DNA of 24,266 bases, taken from the IMG/VR virus record IMGVR_UViG_3300030101_000414, positions 1 to 24,266 of that record; one strand, given 5' to 3'. Within the stretch, counting starts at the first letter, position 1; the number at the start of each line of letters is the position of its first letter. Position numbers and translations under genes: made by a program. This stretch comes from a virus. Under the pieces are notes generated by a model, which had not been told where the DNA came from, did not search any database, and saw only the letters and a program-made list of their open reading frames with translations. Positions 1,512 to 22,718 of this stretch are shown here, in pieces.

Positions 1512-3374
1512 TTAATGAATGAGAAGGACAGAGTTGTTTGGAATAGTGATAGTCACCGAACTTCCAATAGCCACTGGCCCAACGGCCATAGCGTTTTTGT
1601 TTGAGGTGATGGTGTATGACTCGCTCACAGTTTGAGCATTTTCATACAGCCAATCGTTAATAGCCCCACCACCTGAAGCGGTGTTCGCATTAATCGACCC
1701 GCCCATGTAGGCGTGGCTTTGACATTGATAATGTAAATAGCCAGGGGTATCATCACTAATTGTTATTTGTGTATATGCACCTGTACTTCCTGGGGTTCCT
1801 GACGATGTAACTCCTGTTGTGTACGCACCACCGGCTTTATCTCGTTTCTTATAAAAAGCTATTGGGTGTCCACTATTACTTGAATCAGCTTGATCAAATC
1901 TATAAGTATTTCCAGGTATTAATTCAAGATGAGGTGATTGTATTCCTCCTATCGTGTAGCCATCAGTAGAGCCATTACCTTGCTCCTTATGTGCAACAGT
2001 CTTAGCAACAACCTTAACTACATAAGTTTCTTGAGTAGGAACATGTTTTCCATAAACTCCTAAATATCTATCCTCAGAATCATTTGCAAAATAAGAAAGA
2101 TAATTCCAAGTTGTTCCTGATGTTGTGTATTTAAGTCTGACTGTTAATCCAGCATCACCAGTAAACCCAGAAGGTAAAGAAGCTAAAGGACTAAATGATT
2201 CAATCCCTGTACTATCAGCAACTTCTATGTAATCTCCATCACTGGGGCTACCAGGTATAGAAGAAACATTTGTAACAGGAGAATAAAGAACAGCAGCAGA
2301 TACAGCGTTTTGAGCAGAGGTGGCAGTTGCACTAGCTGAGTTTGCGGTTGTAACGGCGGCTGATGCATTTGCGTTGGCTGTGTTTGCCAAAGCGGAAGAG
2401 GCGTTGGCAGTTGATACGGCTGACGAGGCATTTGTGTTGGCTGTATTGGCTAAAGCAGAAGCGGTGTTGCTTGTAGAGATCGCAGTGTCAGCTTTCCCGT
2501 CGGCTGTAGTCGCCAAAGAAGAAGCTGAATTACTTGTTGCAATCGCAGTGTCGGCTTTTCCGTCGGCTGTAGTTGCTAAAGATGAAGCATTAGTCGCTGT
2601 GGTTACTGCGTATGCAACACCTTGGGGATTCCCCCCTATTCCATCACCTTTAAGACTAGTTCCATCGTGAACGTAAGTATCAGTAGCAGTCTTAGACGCA
2701 GCAGCTTGATCAACCGCATATTTTACACCTTGCGGATTAGACCCAACACCATCTCCCTTGAGGCTCGTACCGTCATGGACATAAGTATCAGTCGCTAACT
2801 TCGCTGCATCAGCAGCGTTCTTAGCATTATCAGCAGTCGTAATTCCATAAGCAAGACCTTGAGGATTACTGCCAACTCCATCACCTTTTAAAGATGTTCC
2901 ATCATGGACGTAAGTATCAGTAGCAAGTTTGGCAGCGTCGGCTGTGTTCTTCGCATTAGTAGCAGTTTGTGTCGCTGTGGTACTCGCAGTCGTAGCAGCA
3001 ATAGATTTAGTTGCTCCTAAAGCATTTAGATCTGCTTGCTCCTGAACAATATATAAGTTCTGCAAATCTGCATTATTCAACGCCTCCGAAGTTAAATTTG
3101 ATCCATCACTCCAAGGAGATAACTGTGAATCCTTTGGTGTCTGCCTTTGAATCGTTAACTCTTCTCCAGCCGCAAGACCAGTAGTAAGAGTTATTTGCGT
3201 TGCACTGGTAAATGTATAATCTGTTCCGTCGCTTAAAGTTGAATCTTGGGTTTCTGCTAATAGATCCCTTCCCTTATAAACCTTGACATGAGACTTCAAT
3301 AAATAATTAGAACTAAAGGGCAGAGGAAAAACAGTCTGCCCAGTATTCGTAACTTGCACATAGGTATCAGCCAT
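1512..3374 (-). CDS. T7-like tail fibre protein (gp17-like) with internal repeats and cupredoxin-like site
   Basis: Tail fibre for receptor binding, 620 aa (T7 gp17 is about 553). Residues 1-118 match the T7 tail-fibre N-terminal domain that attaches to the tail: TYVQVTNTGQTVFPLPF, a VKVYKG motif, LTIQRQTP and an ALNNADLQNLYI helix. Residues 120-361 form an Ala/Thr-rich shaft with three copies of DTYVHDGTSLKGDG (153, 196, 232) followed by heptad-like TADGKADTAI and NTANANAS repeats. Residues 480-560 contain SGHPIAF and LHYQCQSHAYMGG, placing His503, Cys551, His554 and Met557 in type-1-copper order. The C-terminus (YTITSNKNAMAVGP to IPNNSVLLIH) is a common cyanophage fibre ending. The ATG at 3374 has no clear Shine-Dalgarno but lies 10 bases after a promoter-like motif (3385-3400). 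An internal alternative start is unlikely because the attachment domain begins at residue 1. Confidence 0.93.
   Translation of the reverse strand: MADTYVQVTNTGQTVFPLPFSSNYLLKSHVKVYKGRDLLAETQDSTLSDGTDYTFTSATQITLTTGLAAGEELTIQRQTPKDSQLSPWSDGSNLTSEALNNADLQNLYIVQEQADLNALGATKSIAATTASTTATQTATNAKNTADAAKLATDTYVHDGTSLKGDGVGSNPQGLAYGITTADNAKNAADAAKLATDTYVHDGTSLKGDGVGSNPQGVKYAVDQAAASKTATDTYVHDGTSLKGDGIGGNPQGVAYAVTTATNASSLATTADGKADTAIATSNSASSLATTADGKADTAISTSNTASALANTANTNASSAVSTANASSALANTANANASAAVTTANSASATATSAQNAVSAAVLYSPVTNVSSIPGSPSDGDYIEVADSTGIESFSPLASLPSGFTGDAGLTVRLKYTTSGTTWNYLSYFANDSEDRYLGVYGKHVPTQETYVVKVVAKTVAHKEQGNGSTDGYTIGGIQSPHLELIPGNTYRFDQADSSNSGHPIAFYKKRDKAGGAYTTGVTSSGTPGSTGAYTQITISDDTPGYLHYQCQSHAYMGGSINANTASGGGAINDWLYENAQTVSESYTITSNKNAMAVGPVAIGSSVTITIPNNSVLLIH
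2292..2594 (-). repeat. Ala/Thr/Ser-rich coiled-coil repeats in the tail-fibre shaft
   Basis: Residues 261-361 of the fibre are short degenerate repeats: ASSLATTADGKADTAI twice, then several versions of ANTANANASAAVTTANSAS. Small residues in a 7-to-11-residue rhythm suggest a triple coiled coil joining the attachment domain to the C-terminal head. The DNA is correspondingly repetitive, which can collapse or shuffle in short-read assemblies. Confidence 0.7.
2619..2918 (-). repeat. Three protein-level repeats (DTYVHDGTSLKGDG) in the tail-fibre shaft
   Basis: Three 21-residue units start at residues 153, 196 and 232 of the fibre (DNA 2856-2918, 2727-2789 and 2619-2681). They are nearly identical as protein: DTYVHDGTSLKGDG, then VGSNPQG twice and IGGNPQG once. 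The DNA copies differ at many synonymous positions, for example three different spellings of the LKGDG segment. Period is 43 and then 36 residues. They probably form repeated structural segments of the trimeric shaft. Confidence 0.85.
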
Positions 3375-3447
3375 CTTGCGGGATTCTTACGAGGACGTAG
3401 CCCTTATTGTAAGGCTTAATCGGAATTTGCAAAGAATCACTATTCAC
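3367..3447 (-). CDS. Possible mini-gene, or readthrough tail of the preceding gene (26 codons)
   Basis: After the TAA (3451-3453) of the 1141-aa ejection protein the same frame stays open for 28 codons and closes at TGA 3367-3369, overlapping the tail-fibre start (ATGGCTGA). From a GTG at 3445-3447 the peptide is 26 aa: VNSDSLQIPIKP followed by YNKGYVLVRIPQDG. It could be a small translated gene that couples fibre translation, a C-terminal extension made by readthrough, or a relic left by a stop mutation. Against it: no Shine-Dalgarno for the GTG, and a promoter-like motif lies inside it (3385-3400), so the openness may be chance. Low confidence. Confidence 0.25.
   Translation of the reverse strand: MNSDSLQIPIKPYNKGYVLVRIPQDG
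3385..3400 (-). promoter_or_regulatory. Late promoter-like motif upstream of the tail fibre
   Basis: The minus strand reads CTACGTCCTCGTAAGA, a member of the four-copy motif also at 17175-17189, 22367-22381 and 22435-22451 (plus strand). Seven bases upstream of the ACGTCC core is TACAAT, at the same spacing as in the 17175 copy. It ends 10 bases before the fibre ATG, where T7 has its phi17 promoter. A small inverted repeat (CCTTA-CAA-TAAGG) lies just upstream at about 3402-3414. Promoter function for a phage-encoded single-subunit RNA polymerase is inferred. Confidence 0.5.
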
Positions 3448-3450
3448 TAA

Positions 3451-14017: not shown

Positions 14018-16509
14018 CTAATTGCCGCCGCCTTTCCAGTTACTAATGCAACCCACTCACAAGTAGAAAACTTACAAGGGTGAGGACTATCATTTTGAAT
14101 CTCCACCATGCACCTCTCACCTCTACTCATAATTGGAATATTGAATACTCCTTCAAAGAACCGTTCATCATCTTGTGTCCAACCATTAGGCAAAGCACTT
14201 CCTAATGCTGAGTTCCTAGAACCTAAAACTGTTCCATCAAACTTATAAATTCCTGTATCTCTTCCCTCTGGAATGACATGGACTTCAAAATAATGTGATT
14301 CGTGATAACGCAGTTTTGCATTTCTTACTTGTGTTCTTTCTACATTTGCTGCTGCTTTACCTCCTCCTATTTCCTTATAAAGTTTAAAACGAGTAAAACG
14401 GTATCTAAAGGTATAAGACTCTCCAAAATAAACCGGAGAACTACTCCAATCACCATCAGCAACAATTGTCGTTCCAGACGTTGCCGAACCGAGATATACA
14501 CCACCGTTTCCTGTTGTGCTAAATCCACTCCACGCTTCTGTTCTTGCCGCGATTGTGTAAGGCAATGTCCAAGTCGTCTTCTTTGTAACTGCGTCATAAC
14601 TAACTATTGAAACTCTCATTGAGGACGGAGTTTCAGTAGTAGTTGAGATACGCCGATCCAATAGAAGAGGATATGGAGAGCCAATTTGAGGCTCTTGCAT
14701 TCGATCCATGACCGAGATTTTTTCTAAATAAACCTTCGTTCCATATCTCATCAAGCAATAAAGCGTTTCTCTTATTGCAAGCACTTGAAGAACTTCATCG
14801 GCCCCTGAGAAGTCCCAATGACTCCAACTAGACTGAGCCCTTTCTGTTCCCTCTCCTGAGTTGCGAAAAAAGAACTTGTAAACATAAATACGACTTTGAT
14901 GACCACTTTTACCACTTATTCCAAACATCACATTGCTTGTATCGTTTACAGTCAACTTGAACATCTGACTTGGGATATAGGCCGATACATAACCTGTTAA
15001 ATCTGCTGCATCTGCTGTTAAAGCAGTACCAGCTCCACGAACACTAAATTCTCTAAACTGTGAGTATTCTCCGTTAGCTTGTACAAAGATAATACCCCCA
15101 CCCGCTAGTTGTGGCCTGACATTTGTATCAACTTCAAATTGAGTTAGAACTGTTATTTGTGCAGTTTTTGGAGTTAATATTGTCTCGGCAGCGTTAAATC
15201 TAAATTGATATTGTGAACTAAATAATATTAATTCGTCCTGATAAGGTACAGCATATTTAAGAATAGAAACTTTGTTATTGCTTGCTATGACATCAATTGG
15301 GTCAGTATCTAAAATTGTCGTAACTGTTTCAGGAAAAAACTCAAAGAACGAACGAACACGACTTAATATGACATTTTCATCAGACAAGAATCCAAGTCTG
15401 TTCTTATAAATAAAAATATCGTTAATAGGAAAACCAATAAAACTTGGATCTGGAGCTGTATTAAAATCACCAGCTATTCGATCACCCCATTTGGGCATTT
15501 CTGTTCCTGATTGAGTACTTGCATCAGCAGGCCCAAAATAAAATTGTCCATTCGATAATCTCACTAAAACGTGAGGCATTGTGTCTTCATCGACCTCGTA
15601 TTCAACACCTGGGCTAACTGTTTCTGTCCAAGCACCTTCTCCAAAAGTTCCACTCTTAGGTTTAAATTCAACGTAATAACCATCAAAATCATTACCTGGA
15701 TCACCAATAATTGAAATTTGATAGCCCTGCGGTGCAATCGTTGGAAGTTCTGTAAATGCCTGAACTTCGTGTAAGAAAATTGCAATATCCTGATTGGCCT
15801 TTGCATCCGTAGCAGCCAATGTGATTGCACTTGAAGATGTCAAATGCAAAACAGAACCACTTCTAGTAATCGTTACTCCACTTGCACTAATTCCAGTTTT
15901 TAAGTTCTCAGCAATATCTTCTGAACTGATTCTATTTTCTGTAACCGAACCACCACTAGAGATAACAGCCGCAACAGGAGTCGTAACTTCTACAGAACTA
16001 CCATTGACTGTCAATTTGTAACGGTTCCCGTATGAAGCTCCTTTGACCCATACCAAGGCTTCATGTGCAGAAGGTCTTGCTGTAGCTGGAGCCGTAGCAG
16101 TTTTCATTGCTGGAACTTTCTTTGTATTAGTTATGAAAGTAAAATCAGCAATCGTTACAGCTCTTATATGCTGCCTTGCGTCAGTAACAGTTGATAAATA
16201 ACTAACTCCACTAGGCTTGTTAACAGTAATAGCGTTCCCATCAAGGTCGTAAACCTTTACGTCGTTATTGCTTATTACTGCAAGATATTCTTCAGTATTA
16301 TCCCTAAGAATACTATGGATGAAACAGTCTCCAAAACTGGTGCTAGAGACTTCTGCCAAGACTTCGCTTGAATCTCTTTTTCGTAAACCTTCGACGATGG
16401 ATGACATTCCATTGACTTGTATCTCTCCTTGTGATGGATCTCTTTGAGCGTCAGGCTGTTGCGAAATACCTTGAGATAGGTTTGGTATTGAATAGGAACG
16501 TAAAGCCAT
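14014..16509 (-). CDS. Tail tubular protein B, gp12-like (831 aa)
   Basis: Nozzle protein of the short tail, 831 aa (T7 gp12 is about 794). The N-terminus (YSIPNLSQGISQQPDAQRD, then VNGMSSIVEGLRKRD) is diagnostic for the family: 'L..GVSQQP' followed by 'N....EGL.KRP/D'. The middle has DPIDVIASNNKVSILKYAVP and the 'L.LFSSQYQFRF' motif near residues 400-435, also typical. The C-terminus contains AKLRYHESHYFEVHVIPEGRD and a final FSTCEWVALVTGK. The start overlaps the tail tubular A stop (TAATG). It works with tail tubular A to form the tail between portal and fibres. Confidence 0.96.
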   Translation of the reverse strand: MALRSYSIPNLSQGISQQPDAQRDPSQGEIQVNGMSSIVEGLRKRDSSEVLAEVSSTSFGDCFIHSILRDNTEEYLAVISNNDVKVYDLDGNAITVNKPSGVSYLSTVTDARQHIRAVTIADFTFITNTKKVPAMKTATAPATARPSAHEALVWVKGASYGNRYKLTVNGSSVEVTTPVAAVISSGGSVTENRISSEDIAENLKTGISASGVTITRSGSVLHLTSSSAITLAATDAKANQDIAIFLHEVQAFTELPTIAPQGYQISIIGDPGNDFDGYYVEFKPKSGTFGEGAWTETVSPGVEYEVDEDTMPHVLVRLSNGQFYFGPADASTQSGTEMPKWGDRIAGDFNTAPDPSFIGFPINDIFIYKNRLGFLSDENVILSRVRSFFEFFPETVTTILDTDPIDVIASNNKVSILKYAVPYQDELILFSSQYQFRFNAAETILTPKTAQITVLTQFEVDTNVRPQLAGGGIIFVQANGEYSQFREFSVRGAGTALTADAADLTGYVSAYIPSQMFKLTVNDTSNVMFGISGKSGHQSRIYVYKFFFRNSGEGTERAQSSWSHWDFSGADEVLQVLAIRETLYCLMRYGTKVYLEKISVMDRMQEPQIGSPYPLLLDRRISTTTETPSSMRVSIVSYDAVTKKTTWTLPYTIAARTEAWSGFSTTGNGGVYLGSATSGTTIVADGDWSSSPVYFGESYTFRYRFTRFKLYKEIGGGKAAANVERTQVRNAKLRYHESHYFEVHVIPEGRDTGIYKFDGTVLGSRNSALGSALPNGWTQDDERFFEGVFNIPIMSRGERCMVEIQNDSPHPCKFSTCEWVALVTGKAAAIR

Positions 16510-17168
16510 TAGAGTCTGATACCAGTAGTTATGCGGCGAGTGCTAAGACCCGAAGCAGGGGCATAAGTTGGAAATGGCAGATGATTTCTTCCTCCTGTTA
16601 ATAGATTTGCTTGCTCCTGTTCTTGTTCCATTCGCTCTAAAACAACTTGAGCTGCTTTCTCGTCTTCTTGCGTATATTTAAACGAAGCACTGTCTCCTAA
16701 AACTCTTTGGGCAAACACTCTCGCTGATCGAATTGTTATCCAACGATTGAATGCTTCAGGGCATTCATCCCATGCCATTCCGAAAATTACATCACATAAA
16801 ACTTCAGTAACCGTTGTTTCTAAAACATAAGTTCGATATTCCGTGTCATATAACCTTGTTCCTCGATGTTGATAACGGCCTGCATAAAGATATGGATCTA
16901 GCGAAAGCTTTAAAACATTCGTTGGAATTTTTACTTCTCCATTAGTGTCTTTAGAAAACGGAAAATCTCTTTCTGTGTTCCAGCTCCAACCTTTAATTTG
17001 ACCTTCTTTATGAAATTCAAGAAGTGTTCTTTCAGCAATCCTCGCATCTGTGATTTGCTGATTTTCTAAGGTGTTAACAGGTTGCTCACCAATATTCTCT
17101 AGCAAGATATTTACTGCATCCAGTAAGCCAGTTTTACCTGGAGTAACCGACTGATTTGCTAATCCCAT
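16509..17168 (-). CDS. Tail tubular protein A, gp11-like adaptor (219 aa)
   Basis: Adaptor ring that joins portal to nozzle, 219 aa (T7 gp11 about 196). Family features are LLDAVNILLENIGEQPVNTL (residues 19-38), the KGWSWNTERDFPF segment, IPTNVLKL, and a RLYDTEYRTYVLE segment, followed by a helix with YITIRSAR-like sequence (WITIRSARVFAQRVLG). It is the first gene after the intrinsic terminator and lies 6 bases downstream of a promoter-like motif (17175-17189). No strong Shine-Dalgarno is present; GATGAGAA precedes the ATG at 17168. Confidence 0.95.
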   Translation of the reverse strand: MGLANQSVTPGKTGLLDAVNILLENIGEQPVNTLENQQITDARIAERTLLEFHKEGQIKGWSWNTERDFPFSKDTNGEVKIPTNVLKLSLDPYLYAGRYQHRGTRLYDTEYRTYVLETTVTEVLCDVIFGMAWDECPEAFNRWITIRSARVFAQRVLGDSASFKYTQEDEKAAQVVLERMEQEQEQANLLTGGRNHLPFPTYAPASGLSTRRITTGIRL

Positions 17169-17174
17169 TTCTCA

Positions 17175-17189
17175 TCTACAAGGACGTTG
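17175..17189 (-). promoter_or_regulatory. Late promoter-like motif upstream of tail tubular A
   Basis: The minus strand reads CAACGTCCTTGTAGA, with TACAAT seven bases before the ACGTCC core (same spacing as the copy at 3385). An 11-base palindrome, ATACAATGTAT, lies just upstream at 17191-17201. The motif is immediately downstream of the terminator at 17210-17235 and 6 bases before the ATG, an arrangement that suggests restart of transcription for the tail genes. Function is inferred. Confidence 0.5.
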
Positions 17190-17209
17190 CATACATTGTA
17201 TTAGTAAGC

Positions 17210-17235
17210 AAAAAAAAGAGCCAGCTTTCGCTGGC
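17210..17235 (-). terminator. Intrinsic terminator after the major capsid gene (T-phi-like position)
   Basis: On the minus strand a perfect 6-bp stem GCCAGC / GCTGGC closes a GAAA tetraloop (17220-17235). It is followed two bases later by eight T residues (17217-17210). It lies 34 bases after the capsid stop codon, between the capsid and tail tubular A genes, exactly where T7 carries T-phi between genes 10 and 11. It probably raises capsid mRNA relative to the tail mRNAs. Confidence 0.9.
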
Positions 17236-17268
17236 CCCTGCGTTGCAATCTTTCCAATTTTAACTTAC

Positions 17269-18294: not shown

Positions 18295-18395
18295 AATTAG
18301 CTAGTTTTTTCTAAAAAATAATTTCGGTTAGATCGCCCGTTCCTCCGCTACTCAGGTTATCCACCTTAATGGGCCTAGTGCTTTTGGTTGCGTTC
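18295..18395 (-). other. Capsid gene leader (101-bp gap with AU-rich hairpin)
   Basis: The gap between scaffold and capsid genes. On the minus strand it contains TTTTTTAGAAAAAA flanked by AATTA and TAATT, an AU-rich hairpin that ends at the capsid start codon. GGAGGA lies at 18341-18346, too far from the ATG unless folding brings it closer. The promoter-like motif found in the other long gaps is not recognisable here. A leader with structural control of translation, or S1-dependent initiation without Shine-Dalgarno, is possible. Confidence 0.35.
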
Positions 18396-21785: not shown

Positions 21786-22175
21786 CTAAGTAATGTTGAG
21801 GCCAGAGCCACTTCCTGACGTTGTGGCAACTCTGCCAATTCTTAAAGAAGTTTTACCTTTTTTAGTTTTTAAACCTCTTTCATCAACTCCAATTTCAGGA
21901 GGTTTGGCATTTGGTTCTCTTGGTGGAGGCCCAACAACTTGAGCTAATCTCATAGCCGCTGCATTTGTATCATCTGCTTGCTGTTGCTTCGCCACTAACA
22001 ATTGTGTCGCTGCATCTTGCTTCGCTCGTAATGCTGAATTGAGATCAGCTTGTGCAGTTAAAGTTGATTGACTAGCAGCCTGTTCTATTGCAGCTTTTTG
22101 TAAATCAAATTGCTGATCATACGCTGCGTAATCAGGAACCGTAATTGTCGCGGCAGAGCCACCACCCATACACAT
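21786..22175 (-). CDS. Small virion protein, gp6.7/gp7.3-like, first of three (129 aa)
   Basis: Starts MCMGGGSAATITVPDYAAYD, with Gln/Ala-rich helices over residues 20-80, a Pro-rich hinge (VGPPPREPNAKPPE), then GLKTKKGKTSLRIGR and a final TSGSGSGLNIT. The end is very close to the recalled T7 gp7.3 C-terminus (KKSLSVARSSGGGINI). GGAGG 7 bases upstream and a TGATG overlap with the 63-aa gene support the ATG at 22175. Likely a minor virion component needed for tail assembly or ejection. The function is inferred from T7. Confidence 0.84.
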   Translation of the reverse strand: MCMGGGSAATITVPDYAAYDQQFDLQKAAIEQAASQSTLTAQADLNSALRAKQDAATQLLVAKQQQADDTNAAAMRLAQVVGPPPREPNAKPPEIGVDERGLKTKKGKTSLRIGRVATTSGSGSGLNIT

Positions 22176-22366
22176 CAGACTGCCTCCAGTTGATAAACGT
22201 CATTTTCCTGTTCTTCCAAACGGCGTTTTAACCACTTGACGACAGATGCCTGGCCTGACTTAAACCAAACTTCTTTTTCAGAAAGACTCAAATCAGGACA
22301 TTGATCTGGGAACTGCTCATCTAAAGCAGCTACAAATCTTTCATCTATGTTTGGGAAATAAGCCAC
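22175..22366 (-). CDS. Hypothetical small protein at the head of the late operon (63 aa)
   Basis: Sequence begins (M/V)AYFPNIDERFVAALDEQFP, then CPDLSLSEKEVWFKSGQASV and a basic/acidic helix KWLKRRLEEQENDVYQLE. The composition is coherent and the gene is tightly coupled to the next one (TGATG), so it is probably real, but I cannot assign a function. The only plausible start is GTG at 22366; no ATG occurs upstream in frame. GGAGA lies one base from the GTG, too close for a normal Shine-Dalgarno, and belongs to the promoter-like motif 22367-22381. The mRNA may therefore be almost leaderless. Confidence 0.72.
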   Translation of the reverse strand: MAYFPNIDERFVAALDEQFPDQCPDLSLSEKEVWFKSGQASVVKWLKRRLEEQENDVYQLEAV

Positions 22367-22381
22367 TCTCCAAGGACGTAG
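22367..22381 (-). promoter_or_regulatory. Late promoter-like motif, leftward, at the head of the late operon
   Basis: The minus strand reads CTACGTCCTTGGAGA, sharing the ACGTCC core with the copies before tail tubular A and the tail fibre. It abuts the GTG of the 63-aa gene and faces away from the plus-strand copy at 22435-22451. Upstream there is also a weak sigma70-like pair on the minus strand (TTGAAT, 16 bases, TACATA). It would drive the head genes up to the terminator at 17210. Function inferred. Confidence 0.45.
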
Positions 22382-22434
22382 ACCTTTACAGCCTACCGAT
22401 AATCGTGAATATGTACCATAGTAGAGGAGTTATT

Positions 22435-22451
22435 CAACTTCCCCGTAGAAG
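22435..22451 (+). promoter_or_regulatory. Promoter-like motif, rightward, upstream of the small terminase
   Basis: The plus strand reads CAACTTCCCCGTAGAAG. Aligned with the tail tubular A copy CAACGTCCTTGTAGATG it matches at 13 of 17 positions without gaps, although it lies on the other strand. It ends 3 bases before the small terminase ATG. It also forms a dyad, AACTTC-CCCGTA-GAAGTT. The CCCGTA part recalls the promoter reported for the Syn5 cyanophage RNA polymerase (from memory, ending CACCCGTAA). Function inferred. Confidence 0.42.
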
Positions 22452-22454
22452 TTT

Positions 22455-22718
22455 ATGGATTTACAAGAAAAATTAGCAGAGATGCACTCCGAAGTAATAG
22501 ATCAAGTATTAGATGATCTAAGAAATGGAGATCGTAAGGCAAGATCAGAGGCAATGATGCTTCTAAAACAAAACAATGTGACTGCTGTTGCAGCAGAAGG
22601 AAGCACATTAAAGAAACTTGCTAACAAATTGGACTTCTCAAGCATGGATGACAAAGTTATTCCGCTTAAGACCCCACCTTCAAACGTCGAACCCCTCCGT
22701 AAGCTCTCCCCGAAGTAG
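22455..22718 (+). CDS. Small terminase subunit, gp18-like (87 aa)
   Basis: The only convincing plus-strand gene. Length 87 aa (T7 gp18 is 89). Residues 1-30 are an acidic helix (LQEKLAEMHSEVIDQVLDDL). Residues 32-65 (ARSEAMMLLKQNNVTAVAAE, then STLKKLANKL) fit the family pattern 'A..ARQFLKDNNITA....L..L...LPF'. Small terminases recognise DNA for packaging and load the large subunit. The ATG at 22455 is the first possible in-frame start (TAG at 22446-22448); no proper Shine-Dalgarno, only AGAAG 3 bases away. Its last 53 bases overlap the 3' end of the large terminase in a tail-to-tail arrangement, unlike T7, where genes 18 and 19 lie on one strand. Confidence 0.78.
   Translation: MDLQEKLAEMHSEVIDQVLDDLRNGDRKARSEAMMLLKQNNVTAVAAEGSTLKKLANKLDFSSMDDKVIPLKTPPSNVEPLRKLSPK

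Follow-up and report, generated by a model that had tools for sequence, protein, structure and literature searches.

A repeated bipartite element before late genes of T7-like podoviruses most likely marks the start points of their transcription

The window, the whole stretch of 24,266 nucleotides analysed here, belongs to a T7-like podovirus of the Oinezvirus/Nohivirus group, and its 24 kb encode terminase, portal, scaffold, capsid, tail tubular proteins A and B, internal proteins and fibre. The nearest named records are the uncultured MedDCM phages Oinezvirus S37C6, Nohivirus S31C1 and Stopalavirus S38C3, together with Synechococcus phage S-SRP02. The portal of the window phage is 99% identical to that of G001, a 42.9-kb IMG/VR record which supplies the half missing from the window, including a T7-type RNA polymerase (PF00940), an integrase and a MarR-type protein; the polymerase region lies outside the window fragment, and the polymerase evidence given below comes from complete relatives. 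An integrase-MarR-polymerase module is present in relatives. In G001, a phage tRNA-Met overlaps the end of the integrase (37511-37585; L037 17611-17685) at a probable att site. Because this tRNA shares a long exact stretch with a tRNA of a single Prochlorococcus genome, Prochlorococcus sp. AG-409-D14, the host of the window phage is probably Prochlorococcus; a host search using a longer tRNA sequence gave no match.

A sequence-only reading of the window had proposed four copies of a short intergenic motif as a new family of phage RNA polymerase promoters. All four were recovered in place and on the expected strand, and the pattern CWACKTCCYYGKA had exactly these four zero-mismatch matches in the window, with no others. 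The copies, their upstream boxes and the genes behind them are as follows.

1512..3374, minus: gene for the tail fibre, preceded by copy 1 (PHROG tail fiber, E=1e-48)
3387..3400, minus: core copy 1, CTACGTCCTCGTAA, 12 nt from the start of the fibre gene; kept in relatives' fibre leaders
3406..3411, minus: TACAAT box upstream of copy 1 at a spacing of 5 nt; YANAAT in nearly all fibre sites
16509..17168, minus: tail tubular protein A (TtA) gene behind copy 2 (phrog_446, E=5e-43)
17176..17189, minus: core copy 2, CAACGTCCTTGTAG, 7 nt before tail tubular protein A; 79 relatives
17195..17200, minus: TACAAT box upstream of copy 2 at a spacing of 5 nt
17208..17239, minus: intrinsic terminator that follows the capsid gene and immediately precedes copy 2; 10-bp stem and T-run
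22175..22366, minus: 63-aa gene, function unassigned, behind copy 3 (phrog_4970, E=9e-14)
22368..22381, minus: core copy 3, CTACGTCCTTGGAG, 1 nt before the GTG of the 63-aa gene; kept in 14 nonredundant relatives
22390..22395, minus: TAGGCT (TAnnnT) box upstream of copy 3, at a spacing of 8 nt that most relatives keep
22435..22448, plus: core copy 4, CAACTTCCCCGTAG, 6 nt from the start of the small-terminase-like gene; forms a divergent pair with copy 3
22455..22718, plus: small terminase / DNA packaging gene behind copy 4 (phrog_891, E=7e-8; PF11123, E=1.5e-10)

The four copies as originally delimited end 10, 6, 0 and 3 nt before their start codons, within the 0-10 nt proposed for them, and TACAAT does lie upstream of both the fibre and TtA copies at the same spacing of 5 nt. 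Four gaps exceed 50 nt; copies occur in three of them (3375-3450, 17169-17268 and 22367-22454, the last with two divergent copies), and the fourth, 18295-18395, holds none. None of the four genes has a Shine-Dalgarno sequence, as had been pointed out, but this is weak evidence because just 8 of the 18 gene starts in the window have one. When up to two mismatches were allowed, 11 matches were found against a shuffled mean of 6.2 (sd 2.6), which is not clearly above chance, so that the case is carried by the exact copies, their placement and the relatives; slots 0-15 nt before a start codon on the right strand make up 0.6% of window positions. A profile trained on 17 TtA sites from other clades only, with the window held out, placed the window sites at ranks 1, 2, 3 and 6 of about 48,500 positions, with E values of 0.000, 0.049, 0.049 and 0.194 for the four.

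Relatives of tail tubular protein A were collected from viral contigs (101 found, 80 loci kept, 79 upstream regions read), and the element was found upstream of the start codon at 79 of 79 loci, over protein identities of 54-100%. The core first described is real, but the full element is larger: YANAAT-N4/5-CWACGNCCYYGTAG, 0-15 nt before the start codon, with the YANAAT box lying 4-5 nt upstream of the core at TtA, at the fibre gene and at a third gene class. The typical TtA locus consists of a terminator hairpin with a T-run (nearly always present, and directly upstream of the element), 8-13 nt, YANAAT, usually 5 nt, the 14-nt core and, after 5-7 nt in nearly all loci, ATG. The capsid-gene terminator of the window folds at -20.8 kcal/mol for 17205-17262 (z -2.75). 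Among 19 nonredundant TtA sequences, element positions -13, -10, -3, -2 and -1 are invariant or nearly so; information reaches 2 bits in element columns, compared with about 0.02-0.4 in most flanking columns, and the invariant GTA is followed by G in 79% of nonredundant TtA sites.

Besides TtA, the element recurs in relatives before the fibre gene, the 63-aa gene and the small terminase, and across clades the core precedes these three genes in up to 14 nonredundant genomes. YANAAT accompanies the TtA and fibre sites, and most 63-aa sites have TAnnnT at a spacing of 8. The third gene class, on the opposite arm (ATGGCTGACAAA...), carries TAAAATAACATCAACGACCCTGTAG with the box 4-5 nt upstream, and copies also lie upstream of the polymerase gene. 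The start codon of the 63-aa gene was GTG in all of the relatives' upstream regions that were looked at, and position -2 of its copy was never T, unlike the TtA and fibre copies.

When the composite pattern was searched against 2.9 million viral contigs, 48 matches were obtained, of which 38 were on contigs with homologues of the phage family and 37 of those lay 7-15 nt before an open frame (a row-by-row count; the stricter 35%-identity cut of the script gives 33 and 30). A reversed-core control against the same contigs gave 32 matches, none in the family; the element is found almost exclusively in this group of phages. Sites within a genome were more alike than sites between genomes (permutation p=0.005), and 25 of 32 held-out sites pointed toward the gene (p=0.002), both with kinship and base composition only partly corrected; copies in one genome nonetheless differ at several of the 14 core positions. 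Some high-scoring matches were set aside as coding coincidences, for example G001 31133, within a stretch that reads GYGPVTAKKL, and 35085, on the antisense strand of the polymerase gene. Close to where the tail region of G001 ends, at 27393 (+/-), there is also a copy that is almost a perfect palindrome, CTACACGGCCGTAG; a 66-aa open frame begins 5 nt after it, and G002-G004 have equivalents. This copy could be a divergent or regulator site.

For these repeats a role as late-gene promoters is the best-supported reading, given their orthologous conservation, the terminator at TtA, their orientation, their near-confinement to the group, the polymerase encoded in the relatives and the divergence of the motif along with it; the promoter family proposed from the window is partly supported, but the element is larger and more palindromic than was described and recognition by the phage polymerase is a further step. 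We would give an even chance to the more specific reading in which this late promoter is peculiar to the phage and is read by its own T7-type single-subunit RNA polymerase. That enzyme would recognise YANAAT-N4/5-CWACGNCCYYGTAG and would initiate at or beside the last G of the core (GTA|G). A tail-gene unit would begin behind the capsid terminator, and other late units would comprise the tail fibre, the divergent pair of the 63-aa gene and small terminase, and one opposite-arm gene class; the polymerase gene itself is probably also driven by the element. Promoter activity, start site and recognition by the phage polymerase are all points that we infer from comparison of sequences.

Several observations fit this reading. 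At TtA, the DNA between terminator and gene is about 45 nt long and holds the element and nothing else, so that something there must restart transcription unless read-through of this strong terminator suffices. A PF00940 polymerase is encoded in 7 of 7 complete relatives searched, and the relatives' polymerase matches T7 RNA polymerase (E about 1e-45). The element and the polymerase diverge together: in S-SRP02, where the polymerase is 34% identical, the core has changed to CTGCACNYGTGSAG, with 9 matches against 0.5 expected, before the same genes and with the full form TAnnAT-N5-CTGCACNYGTGSAG; in S38C3 (26% identity) a related core, CACNTGTGCAG, is found at TtA and ssb. The element is absent from P-RSP2, which has no such polymerase, and from T7-like phages with other polymerases (P-SSP7, S-TIP37, CRP-171, Syn5 and LUZ100). 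A core that changes where the polymerase has diverged and is missing elsewhere is what a polymerase-promoter pair predicts, although P-RSP2 cannot separate this from models based on MarR, because MarR is also absent there. Promoters are not mentioned in the only isolate paper located for these phages, that on S-SRP02 (PMC8790148).

As with T7-type promoters, the motif is short, oriented, repeated before middle and late genes and rare elsewhere, and GTA-G, at the predicted start site, would provide a TA-containing melting region ending in an initiating purine. The class III promoters of T7 (phi6.5, phi10 and phi17) are late and precede head/tail and fibre genes; the T7 promoter, TAATACGACTCACTATAG, occurs as strong, uniform 23-bp copies, one of them before the capsid gene. 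The copies here likewise precede tail and fibre genes, but the capsid gap of the window has no copy. There is also no AT-rich recognition region at -17 to -13, where that of T7 lies; the box here is at -24 to -19, and at the 63-aa and terminase sites it is either weak or differently spaced. The copies within one genome are not near-identical, and vary more than those of T7 or LUZ100.

A close likeness is to LUZ100 (Autographiviridae), a T7-like phage which has marR, int and RNA polymerase in a row and about eight short promoters, phi1-phi8, with a motif unlike that of T7; the polymerase is preceded by one of them, ssb and structural genes by others (PMC10134795). The module and the kinds of genes preceded are similar; the LUZ100 promoter, AATTACCACACAGTCTTGGA, is however not bipartite, is near-identical between sites and was mapped by ONT-cappable-seq (PMC10134795), whereas the element here is bipartite, half-palindromic and known from sequence. 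The short (15-16 bp) promoters for the single-subunit polymerases of KP34, with the 3' end AGGAGTA|GGG (PMC6834552), and Syn5, with CACCCGTAA|GGG (PMC3950665), resemble the CCYYGTA|G of this group at their 3' ends, but no upstream YANAAT box was seen in them, they have few sites per genome and their polymerases are of other clades (that of Syn5 is 22.5% identical to the G001 polymerase).

Several features argue against recognition by the phage polymerase: the variation among copies, the quasi-palindromic core, the position of the AT-rich box, the 63-aa gene with its box 8 nt away and a leader that would be about 2 nt before GTG, and S-SRP02, in which the TAnnAT box is kept and the core changed, as would be expected of a host -10 box. 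An ordinary sigma-70 host promoter was rejected, there being no conserved -35 hexamer 16-18 nt upstream; at TtA that position is occupied by the terminator stem. A serious, though less likely, alternative is that YANAAT/TAnnnT is a cyanobacterial -10 box acting without a -35 element, with transcription starting about 7 nt past it, near CWAC, and that a dimeric MarR-type phage protein on a downstream operator, CTAC-N6-GTAG, activates or represses late transcription. This would explain the 8-nt box spacing and the near-zero leader of the 63-aa gene better than the polymerase does, would give leaders of about 17-27 nt and suits a likely Prochlorococcus host. The half-sites are about one helical turn apart, the dyad recurs in S-SRP02 (CTGCAC-NN-GTGCAG) and is extended in S37C6 (CACTAC-N6-GTAGTG), and TAnnnT is kept even at a spacing of 8 or with a diverged core. 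MarR is encoded along with the sites, as an operator would require, in nearly all relatives checked (it is missing only from a partial contig), and among the relatives that include that region none was found to carry the motif without MarR.

There is also a precedent for a MarR-type protein of a cyanophage that works downstream of the point where transcription starts: pMarR of P-SSP7 binds downstream of a start site, touches the alpha subunit of host RNA polymerase and has its activator site in rne, a Prochlorococcus gene (PMC9692554). That target is a host gene, however, the available text names no sequence motif, and P-SSP7 itself lacks the element; P-SSP7, S-TIP37 and CRP-171 all have MarR with no such element at TtA. 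Moreover, the dyad is not maintained: half-sites are visible in the core, but two site classes each have one fixed position at which the symmetry is lost, the third pair forming in 0 of 14 sequences at the 63-aa gene and the second in 47% at TtA. The bias of the sites toward the gene also speaks against an operator, and a candidate copy precedes marR itself in some genomes only (100-210 nt upstream in G001, G003, S31C1 and S38C3, and not found in S37C6 or SRP02). Finally, the host-promoter model leaves the phage polymerase to be served by some other shared motif, and self-comparison of intergenic regions turned up nothing beyond terminal repeats, hairpins resembling terminators and a leader motif of early genes.

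The two proteins may also meet on the same DNA. It is unlikely, though conceivable, that the half-palindromic core serves both as late promoter for the polymerase and as MarR dimer site, with all promoters switched off (or on) together by one small repressor; if true, this would mean a lysogeny switch built into the promoter sequence. About as unlikely is the narrower form, in which MarR bound to the half-palindromic core silences every promoter of the phage polymerase at once during lysogeny; it draws on the same dyad and co-occurrence of MarR, on the integrase-MarR-polymerase module and on the proposal by the LUZ100 authors that MarR represses the LUZ100 polymerase promoter (PMC10134795), but the dyad is degenerate at two of the four site classes and the binding of MarR is a prediction.

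A leader RNA element, whether hairpin or ribosome-binding substitute, acting on translation or mRNA processing is improbable. All copies do lie 0-15 nt before start codons of genes without a Shine-Dalgarno sequence, and a different conserved leader, AACCACGACCA, precedes early genes of the same phages. The Shine-Dalgarno substitute, which the sequence-only reading had held in reserve, is nevertheless disfavoured because the distance from motif to start varies between 0 and 15 nt; no plausible ribosome site would extend to the conserved YANAAT box, and the motif is absent from genes inside operons. A hairpin was not supported, since folding is no better than in shuffles (z between -0.9 and +1.0) and pairing is not maintained. 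That four intergenic 13-mers merely resemble one another by chance, as the hit count with two mismatches would allow, can be dismissed, being refuted by the held-out ranking, the 79 orthologous TtA loci and the placement confined to the phage family.

The scaffold-capsid gap holds a different element, in the leader of the major capsid gene (18351-18380, minus). In this RNA an outer 4-bp stem encloses GCCC, a small inner hairpin and GGAYAAC, in that order; over 22 distinct sequences every scored pair forms (100% of cells), with 29 double changes, and its covariation score was reached by 0 of 500 shuffles. It lies before the capsid gene in most genomes of the group searched, was not detected in Syn5, KP34, LUZ100 or S-SRP02 at the threshold used, and Rfam gave no match in the window; one possible role is to bind a factor that controls translation of capsid. 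The early-gene motif AACCACGACCA precedes the starts of early and lysogeny genes by 0-18 nt, and a GGAGCCC-UUCG-GGGCUCC hairpin often lies in front of it. Sites of this motif include G001 38428-, 38692-, 41804- and 42660- and the early regions of G007 and G011 (with tandem ACCACG repeats in G011), and there is none in the window.

On the evidence of the late-gene sites, the repeats most likely mark the start points of late (tail and packaging) gene transcription in phages which are uncultured and are probably phages of marine picocyanobacteria. Knowledge of the element lets transcription units be recognised in many metagenomic phage genomes with nothing but the sequence, and synthetic biology gains a candidate for a new polymerase-promoter pair. 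With it, the choice between lysis and lysogeny in T7-like phages that carry integrase and MarR becomes testable on short DNA fragments.
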